Under the pieces are notes generated by a model. It was not told the DNA's origin and did no database searches. It saw nothing but the letters and a program-made list of their open reading frames with translations. Below are positions 46,329 through 48,904 of a DNA stretch of 64,000 bases, in pieces. This DNA comes from Natronospira proteinivora (lineage in GTDB: Bacteria; Pseudomonadota; Gammaproteobacteria; Natronospirales; Natronospiraceae): NCBI RefSeq assembly GCF_024170465.1, contig NZ_JALJYF010000001.1, positions 434,001 through 498,000 on the forward strand, read 5' to 3'. The position numbers were made by a program, and so were the translations under genes. Position 1 is the stretch's first letter, and every line of letters starts with the position of its first letter.

Positions 46329-47204
46329 ATGTTTGGCGGAAGCATGGTGGCCCTGGTCACGCCCATGCGGGCGGATGGTGAGGTTGATTATGACGCGCTG
46401 GAGCGCCTCATCGAGTTTCATGTGGACGGGGGAACCGAGGCCCTGGTGATCGCGGGAACCACGGGGGAATCCCCCACCCTGCGAACCGAAGAGCATGCCC
46501 GCCTCATCGGTGAGGCCGTACGTTTGTCCAATCGCCGTATTCCCATTATTGCAGGCACCGGCTCCAACTCCACTCAGCAGACCCTGGAATTGACCTGCAA
46601 AGTGGAACGCATGGGGGTGGATGGCTTTCTGATGGTGGTGCCTTATTACAATAAGCCCAGTCAGGAGGGTCTCTACCGTCATTTCCATACCGTAGCTTCG
46701 GCGGTGGAGAAACCGGTGATCCTGTACAATGTGCCAGGGCGAACCAGTTGCGATCTGCGACCGGAGACGGTGGCGCGCTTGGCGACGTTGGACAATGTGG
46801 TGGGTATCAAGGAGGCCACCGGCTGCATGAACCGTCTGGCTGATCTTTGCCGGGAGTGCGGTGACAGTCTGGAACTCTATACCGGGGATGATGCCACTGC
46901 CCTGGATTTCATGCTGGGGGGCGGTATCGGTGATATCTCCGTGACGGCCAATGTGGCGCCCCGACAGATGCGCCAGTTGTGCGATGCGGCCAGGGCCGGG
47001 CGCGAGGACGAGGCCCGAGCCATTAACGAACGCCTCATGCCGCTGCATCGGGAGCTTTTCGTCGAGGCCAACCCGGTTCCGGTGAAGTGGGCGCTTCAGC
47101 AGATGGGACTGATTGATTCCGGCATTCGCTTGCCCCTGGTCCCCCTGGACGAGGCGCACCATGAGCGGGTCCGTTACGCCATGACGCATGCGGGCATCAT
47201 CTGA
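46329..47204 (+). CDS. dapA: 4-hydroxy-tetrahydrodipicolinate synthase
   Basis: DapA condenses pyruvate and aspartate semialdehyde, the first step of the lysine/diaminopimelate pathway. The 291-residue TIM barrel has MVALVTPM, the GTTGESPTL phosphate loop, the Schiff-base Lys161 in VVGIKEATG and Tyr133 in LYNVPGRT, identical in number to the E. coli residues. It is followed after 72 bases by the gene in the usual bamC position. Confidence 0.97.
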   Translation: MFGGSMVALVTPMRADGEVDYDALERLIEFHVDGGTEALVIAGTTGESPTLRTEEHARLIGEAVRLSNRRIPIIAGTGSNSTQQTLELTCKVERMGVDGFLMVVPYYNKPSQEGLYRHFHTVASAVEKPVILYNVPGRTSCDLRPETVARLATLDNVVGIKEATGCMNRLADLCRECGDSLELYTGDDATALDFMLGGGIGDISVTANVAPRQMRQLCDAARAGREDEARAINERLMPLHRELFVEANPVPVKWALQQMGLIDSGIRLPLVPLDEAHHERVRYAMTHAGII

Positions 47205-47276: not shown

Positions 47277-48683
47277 ATGCCTATTCGATTTGCTTTCGCA
47301 CTCCTTGGAGTGACGCTGTTTCTGAACGGCTGTGCCGGCACTTTCCAATGCGATGAGGATCGCGTGGAGCCTTATATGGAGGTGGACCGGGGCAGTGAGC
47401 TGGATCCAGGAGACCTGGATTTTCAGCCCGATCCCCGTGGACGCTTTGATATCCCTGGAGAGGAAAGGGTGGATCGTGCCCGGGCCAATCCCTGCCTGGC
47501 TCAGTCACCACGGATCGTGGATCCACCGACGCCGGAAGAGCGGGAAGTGCGTGAGGCGCAAGCTTTTGCGGATCTGCGCGTGCGGGTTGAAACATTAAGC
47601 CAGGATGGTTTTGACTTGGGTTCAACCGCCAACACCATGCGACTGCGCCTGGGGGGCACCACGCCAAGGGTGGCTGGCTTCGATGCTGGCATTGCCTTCC
47701 AAACCAACCAGGTTCTGGATGATATCCGCTATGCCGACAGCACCGGGGCGCAGCCGAATCGTCCGGTGATTCGTGACCCGGCGGATACCGGGGTTTCGGA
47801 AGGCTGGGGCCGTTATGTCACCGCTGGTGACGGGTTCGAGGTCAAGGTGGGTCGTCAGGCCTTGCGCCATGACAATCAACGATTCGTGGGCAGCAGTTCC
47901 TTCCGTCAGTTGGAGCAGACCTATAACGCCGCAGCCTTTCGCTTCGGCACTGGCGAGACCTGGCAGCTGGATGCTCAACATCTGAGCCAGGGCATCACGC
48001 CACTGGGCCCCAATAACCCGGACCGCTCTTTGGGCAAGATGGACGTGGGCGCAACATTGCTGGACTTCAGTCGCCAGATTGGTGACAGTCAGCTGGGTCT
48101 CTACGCCCATCATGTGGATTTTGATGATCAGCGCGTTTCCCATCAGAACTTGGGTTTGAGATTACATGGCCGCTTGCCCTGGACTGAACGTTTCGATTAT
48201 CGCCTGGAACTGGCAGAGCAGAGCGATCTCCGTGGCACGGGCCCGGAGGACGGTCTTGGCTATTATCACCTGAAACTGGGGCAGTCCCTGGATGATTGGC
48301 GCTGGTACGCCGGCCAGGAACGCCTGGAAGGTGATGGCGAGCTCGGATATCAGACTCCCTTGGGCAGCACCCATGAATTTAATGGTTGGGTGGATCGTTT
48401 CCTGACCATTCCTTCCCTGGGCCTGGTGGATAATTACGCCGGTGTGGTGGTGTCGCGCTGGGGCTGGGATTTCGAGTCCCGCATGCATCAGTTCCGTGTC
48501 GAGAACGGTAGCGGTGGCTATGGCGAGGAACTAGGCATTAGGGCAGGGCGTAGCTTGGGAGACAATCTCCGGGTGGATATCGGTTATAGCCGATACTTCG
48601 GTGAAGACAACGATGCCCACGGCTATGAGGATTTGAGAGGTGATTCCCGTCGCAGCTGGATCAGTCTCGGTGCCGAGTTCTAA
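47277..48683 (+). CDS. Porin-like outer-membrane protein with BamC-like lipoprotein N-terminus
   Basis: A 468-residue protein in the slot normally held by bamC. Residues 1-19 form a lipoprotein signal (LFLNGC, Cys19). Residues 30-62 (YMEVDRGSELDPGDLDFQ then FDIP) resemble the extended arm of BamC that lies on BamD. From about residue 105 it turns into amphipathic strands like alginate-export porins: LRLGGTT, VKVGRQALRHDNQRFVGSSSFRQLEQTYNAA, and a final strand SRRSWISLGAEF ending in Phe. Two more Cys, 25 and 73, could form a disulfide. No convincing ribosome site precedes the ATG. The globular BamC domains are missing. Confidence 0.7.
   Translation: MPIRFAFALLGVTLFLNGCAGTFQCDEDRVEPYMEVDRGSELDPGDLDFQPDPRGRFDIPGEERVDRARANPCLAQSPRIVDPPTPEEREVREAQAFADLRVRVETLSQDGFDLGSTANTMRLRLGGTTPRVAGFDAGIAFQTNQVLDDIRYADSTGAQPNRPVIRDPADTGVSEGWGRYVTAGDGFEVKVGRQALRHDNQRFVGSSSFRQLEQTYNAAAFRFGTGETWQLDAQHLSQGITPLGPNNPDRSLGKMDVGATLLDFSRQIGDSQLGLYAHHVDFDDQRVSHQNLGLRLHGRLPWTERFDYRLELAEQSDLRGTGPEDGLGYYHLKLGQSLDDWRWYAGQERLEGDGELGYQTPLGSTHEFNGWVDRFLTIPSLGLVDNYAGVVVSRWGWDFESRMHQFRVENGSGGYGEELGIRAGRSLGDNLRVDIGYSRYFGEDNDAHGYEDLRGDSRRSWISLGAEF

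Positions 48684-48758: not shown

Positions 48759-48904
<146 letters not shown>

Follow-up and report, generated by a model that had tools for sequence, protein, structure and literature searches.

In Natronospira, a soda-lake bacterium, the gene directly downstream of dapA, which is the place of bamC, encodes a lipoprotein-type N-terminal arm joined in a single reading frame to a porin-type barrel with 18 predicted strands. BamC is an accessory part of the outer membrane protein assembly machine (BAM). Our preferred explanation, which we hold to be probable, is a lineage-specific fusion of a BamC-type arm and a duplicated porin, in which the arm would dock on BamD and BAM would fold the barrel. 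The features of the locus, numbered within the window (the whole 64,000-nucleotide stretch of the Natronospira proteinivora genome that was analyzed), are as follows.

46329..47204, + strand: dapA, an ORF with 41 to 78% identity in relatives, in nearly all of which a BamC-type lipoprotein comes next
47277..48683, + strand: the fusion gene (lipoprotein signal, BamC-type arm, and Alginate_exp barrel; 468 aa)
47277..47330, + strand: putative lipoprotein signal peptide, residues 1 to 18, with lipobox L-N-G-C (read from the sequence)
47331..47561, + strand: arm (mini-BamC, lasso), residues 19 to 95, with the Cys25/Cys73 pair, predicted to be disordered (profile match to the arm-only BamC family, HMM, pLDDT)
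47562..48680, + strand: porin barrel, 18 predicted strands, residues 96 to 468, with terminal Phe (Pfam PF13372, AlphaFold2, Foldseek to AlgE and Occ porins)
48759..48849, + strand: tRNA-Ser(GGA) (ARAGORN), the next gene downstream, which marks the locus boundary and lies outside the system

The fusion ORF starts with ATG 72 bases after dapA and runs for 468 codons to a C-terminal Phe468. Its product begins with MPIRFAFALLGVTLFLNG-C19, a lipobox (LNG-Cys19) whose cysteine is invariant in the three Natronospira species and in G003, a genome of the same family but of another genus. The arm that follows, about 77 residues of low-complexity sequence rich in proline and acidic residues, contains the motif Y33-MEVDRGSELDPGDLDFQPDPRGRFDIP60. 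Among the three Natronospira species the ORF is about 53% identical, and the junction between arm and barrel is free of stop codons in all of them; this means that the fusion is neither a sequencing error nor a chance ORF, and an assembly or frameshift artifact was likewise ruled out. In both parts nonsynonymous change was lower than synonymous change. The ratio of nonsynonymous to synonymous changes was 0.49 to 0.60 for the arm and 0.37 to 0.45 for the barrel (synonymous sites are near saturation in these comparisons), and the arms are 44 to 56% identical between species, somewhat below the barrel in two of the three comparisons. Both arm cysteines and the NPCL..PR segment are kept in every Natronospira arm.

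The first-pass annotation had proposed, from the sequence alone, an alginate-export-type barrel ending in a terminal Phe, and this proposal was borne out. The only Pfam match in the protein is to Alginate_exp (PF13372), at residues 162 to 327 (E = 3.1e-8; 33.3 bits, compared to a curated cut-off of 25.2), and the two orthologues scored 24.4 and 23.0 bits, just under that cut-off. An AlphaFold2 model built on 47 sequences placed 18 strands at residues 96 to 467, mostly with pLDDT above 90, whereas residues 47 to 88 were below 50; about 20 residues separate the second arm cysteine from strand 1. In a Foldseek search the best PDB match was AlgE (8rqp, E = 7.5e-15), and Occ/OprD porins were also found. 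None of the best 50 PDB matches listed was a FadL structure, so that the fold is not that of a BamG-like FadL-family barrel with an extended N-tail. As modeled, residues 96 to 468 are thus an Alginate_exp/AlgE-Occ-like porin barrel. Of the residues that 80% or more of the wider barrel family have in common, the fusions keep most, which makes it unlikely that the barrel is dead; about a dozen are changed in all three fusions, and some of these changes also occur in paralogues.

Relatives of the barrel were detected in 82 of 369 genomes of the class. Outside Natronospira the matches cover the barrel, and a match from residue 1 was obtained only within the genus; those relatives whose N termini were read have ordinary Sec signals and no arm. 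The window genome carries exactly one further Alginate_exp barrel. In a maximum-likelihood tree the three fusion barrels form one clade (100/100), which groups with the non-lipidated barrels of the same family (100/100), and this grouping points to duplication within the family as the source. Judging from the tree, the fusion barrel therefore arose as a copy of the non-lipidated porin that the family already had. The non-lipidated paralogue adjoins a divergent Crp-type regulator in two genomes (G001, which is of the window's genus, L076:4689-6703; G002, L077:6869-8859), and in a third (G000, L075:7027-14228) its neighborhood contains molybdenum cofactor (moaA) and nitric oxide reductase (NorB-like) genes. 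These neighbors suggest a link of the paralogue to anaerobic nitrogen metabolism.

The dapA-bamC gene order was surveyed in 134 gammaproteobacterial genomes, most of which represent separate families of the class. Slots were sorted by a simple lipobox rule, with visual inspection wherever the assignment was in doubt; 13 unclassified slots and one mis-sorted slot were assigned in this way, and the corrected counts are given here. Full-length BamC occupied the slot in 70 genomes, proteins of intermediate length in 14, arm-only lipoproteins in 39, and fusions in 3. In one genome (G050) the slot held a short arm protein together with full BamC, and in four there was no BamC-like gene; in one the contig stopped partway through the gene, and two had too little sequence. 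The expectation that dapA is normally followed by bamC therefore holds, with BamC or a shortened BamC in the slot in nearly all 134 genomes, and strongly shortened BamC is common. The mature arm-only lipoproteins are about 40 to 127 aa long, although G064 and G068, both among the shortest, are doubtful. Arm-only loci after dapA include L022-L037, L039, L040, L060, L065, and L067, many of them with an extra Cys pair, and all readable order-mates of the window (families f2, f3, and f4) are arm-only. In the G050 case (L002), the gene after dapA encodes an arm-only lipoprotein of 65 aa in which the BamC arm motif is clear, and full-length BamC comes directly next; the arrangement looks like a duplication of the arm.

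A separate complete bamC, which would have told against the reading of the annotation, was not found: PF06804 (BamC) had no match at E ≤ 10 anywhere in the window genome (2.9 Mb, 98% complete, 4 contigs). BamA, BamD, and BamE are all present above curated cut-offs. In G001, a PF06804 match on contig C18 that does not lie at dapA was due to chance and was dropped. In two order-mates that are 99 to 100% complete (G005 and G007), an arm-only BamC is present but nothing exceeded the TIGR03302 (BamD) cut-off; their best TIGR03302 matches are weak and CpoB/YbgF-like, and the lack of a BamD match may be due to gaps between contigs or to limits of the search.

The fusion gene itself shares the position of bamC, and the annotation had called its N-terminal segment BamC-like by eye. 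Direct comparison did not uphold this. PF06804 failed to match the fusion protein at E ≤ 10, which agrees with the claim that the BamC globular domains are absent from it; the arm gave no BamC match in Pfam, NCBIfam, or PDB sequence searches; and the whole fusion protein gave no match in the PDB by phmmer. When the arms of the window's family were compared directly with those of full-length BamC, the profile E value was 0.03 and 3 of 150 column shuffles were as good, which is not significant. An order-level arm HMM used in a six-frame scan of the window genome did not recover the fusion gene either, so that homology of the arm rests on profile comparison and position rather than on a database match. 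A significant direct match to BamC, on which the annotation had staked its reading, was thus lacking, and what rescues the reading is an intermediate family, the arm-only proteins.

The evidence through this family is as follows. First, the family arms matched the arm-only proteins with a profile E value of 3.3e-6 (score 31.9, shuffle maximum 14.6, 0 of 150 column shuffles as good). Second, the arm-only proteins matched the arms of full BamC to a similar degree (E = 3.2e-6, score 32.9, shuffle maximum 14.7, 0 of 150 as good). Third, an arm-only HMM trained without the family gave the four family arms 19 to 24 bits, the window arm scoring 20.3, compared to 12.9 for the best of 2,000 shuffles; the best genuine decoy among 24 non-slot lipobox ORFs reached 9.2, well under the family arms. 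One high-scoring candidate decoy, L210, was rejected because it is a real dapA-slot arm (G103). Finally, the window arm and its order-mates have a derived feature in common, a cysteine a few residues past the lipidated one and a second cysteine in a C-L-x-x-(P/A/S)-P-type segment. Derivation of the arm from BamC is therefore supported, through the arm-only intermediates and synteny, as a conclusion drawn from sequence.

Two features of the arm bear on its possible function. The extra cysteines occurred together in 24 of 41 short or fused arms and were both missing in the other 17, never singly by the rule used, and this co-occurrence suggests that they form a disulfide. The P-x-G-L core, which in other arms is the best-conserved part, is degenerate in the window's family, and binding to BamD may be altered as a result.

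The fusion was present in three of three Natronospira genomes and nowhere else among the genomes sampled, whereas an arm-type gene follows dapA in all family members. The key intermediate is G003, in which dapA is followed by a 93-aa arm-only lipoprotein that is 42% identical to the window arm and ends at the point where the barrel starts in Natronospira; this end should be read with caution, as only about 10 bases separate the stop codon from the edge of a contig and the genome is 83% complete. The G003 barrel is encoded elsewhere in the genome. At that locus (L078:5573-8520) a DHDPS-family (DapA-like) gene is found a short distance upstream of the non-fused barrel. The replacement seems to have taken place in two steps, with BamC reduced to its arm first and the barrel added later. 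Since P-x-G-L is also degenerate in the G003 arm-only protein, the degeneration is older than the fusion.

The sequence of events that we consider probable is the following. BamC in the ancestor of the order would already have been without its two helix-grip domains, leaving a short lipidated arm after dapA. In Natronospira, a duplicated 18-stranded Alginate_exp-type porin, minus its signal peptide, would then have been fused in frame behind this arm. The product would be exported on the lipoprotein signal, lipidated at Cys19, and, with Ala at +2, sorted to the outer membrane, and its arm would probably be closed by a Cys25-Cys73 disulfide. By analogy with E. coli BamC, the lipidated arm may dock on BamD in the manner of the BamC lasso, a step to which we give about an even chance, and the attached barrel, with its N terminus facing the periplasm, would be folded into the membrane by BAM. 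Afterwards the barrel might be kept tethered next to BAM as an additional transmembrane subunit, where it must remain if the arm stays docked, or released as a lipid-anchored porin; it would also have pore activity. A bolder version is that a second transmembrane barrel belongs to the Natronospira BAM in stoichiometric amounts, as a subunit joined covalently to a BamC-type lasso on BamD, the BamC globular domains having been lost and a porin put in their place, as an independent proteobacterial counterpart of the Bacteroidota BamG. This is offered tentatively, at somewhat less than an even chance.

Other readings of the same protein were weighed. The duplicated porin may simply have captured the export signal and lipid anchor of the arm gene, in which case the arm would by now have lost its binding to BamD and serve as a spacer, and the porin could be anywhere in the outer membrane. 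The retention of most family-conserved porin residues and the degenerate P-x-G-L core fit this reading, and loss of BamC has little effect in E. coli (PMC13067283). Against it, the arm is conserved among Natronospira, with nonsynonymous change below synonymous change and with its cysteines and NPCL..PR segment intact, and the degeneration of the arm, seen also in G003, preceded the fusion; we regard this reading as unlikely. Still more doubtful is that the arm takes its own barrel to BamD for faster folding and then releases it, so that the protein would be a favored substrate and not a subunit. BamD does have a role in the handling of substrates, and an N-terminal periplasmic arm would suit a barrel modeled with a periplasmic N terminus; yet the family's barrels fold without an arm, and relatives have arm-only BamC without an attached barrel, which argues that the older role of the arm was not self-targeting. 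That the arm is an unrelated lipoprotein, resembling BamC by composition and chance, is very improbable: it would agree with the lack of a direct Pfam match and the weak direct comparison with full BamC arms, but not with the profile statistics, the matching Cys pair and PP motif, the location of the gene after dapA throughout the family, or the arm-only orthologue in G003.

The preferred reading, a BamC-type arm fused to a duplicated porin, has several implications. The arm of BamC, and not its globular domains, is the part most widely kept, and it is the sole remnant in some 30% of the gammaproteobacterial genomes surveyed. One genus has hung a porin on this arm, a natural domain swap that makes the purpose of BamC testable. 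If docking is true, the proteobacteria would offer an example of a barrel tethered to BAM, the very machine by which barrels are built. It also presents a puzzle of lipoprotein trafficking, as an 18-strand barrel would need to travel as a lipoprotein. Neither arm-only BamC nor the arm-barrel fusion was found described in the open-licence literature searched, and within that literature both appear to be new.

The fusion can be compared with several known systems. BamC (NlpB, PF06804) has been reported in all beta- and gammaproteobacteria, with the helix-grip motifs conserved throughout (Anwari et al. 2012, PMC3359395), and in E. coli its disordered N-terminal arm wraps around BamD (PMC3359395, PMC13067283). 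The fusion resembles it in its place after dapA, its lipobox, and its arm, predicted to be disordered, but lacks the helix-grip domains, has two extra arm cysteines, and carries a transmembrane barrel where those domains would be. The alphaproteobacterial BamF is likewise a lipoprotein in which a short membrane-proximal arm motif, proposed to be a docking motif, is all that is common with BamC and is followed by other sequence (PMC3359395); it has no barrel, whereas the fusion has one and shows synteny with bamC. The Bacteroidota BamG is an essential second transmembrane barrel in BAM (PMC12611786, PMC12578637), but it belongs to the FadL family, has no BamC-type arm, and binds BamA directly, whereas docking of the fusion on BAM is suggested by its arm only. 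AlgE, the Occ (OprD-type) porins, and PF13372 proteins have the predicted 18-strand fold and the Alginate_exp profile match in common with the fusion barrel and differ from it in the ordinary Sec signal and armless N terminus of those relatives that were read. Mdm10 is also a porin-like barrel that associates with an Omp85 insertase, in the mitochondrial SAM (PMC7335169); its association is transient and involves no covalent docking arm, and no homology to the fusion is claimed. Thus, the docking arm is known and the porin fold is known, and it is their combination that is new.
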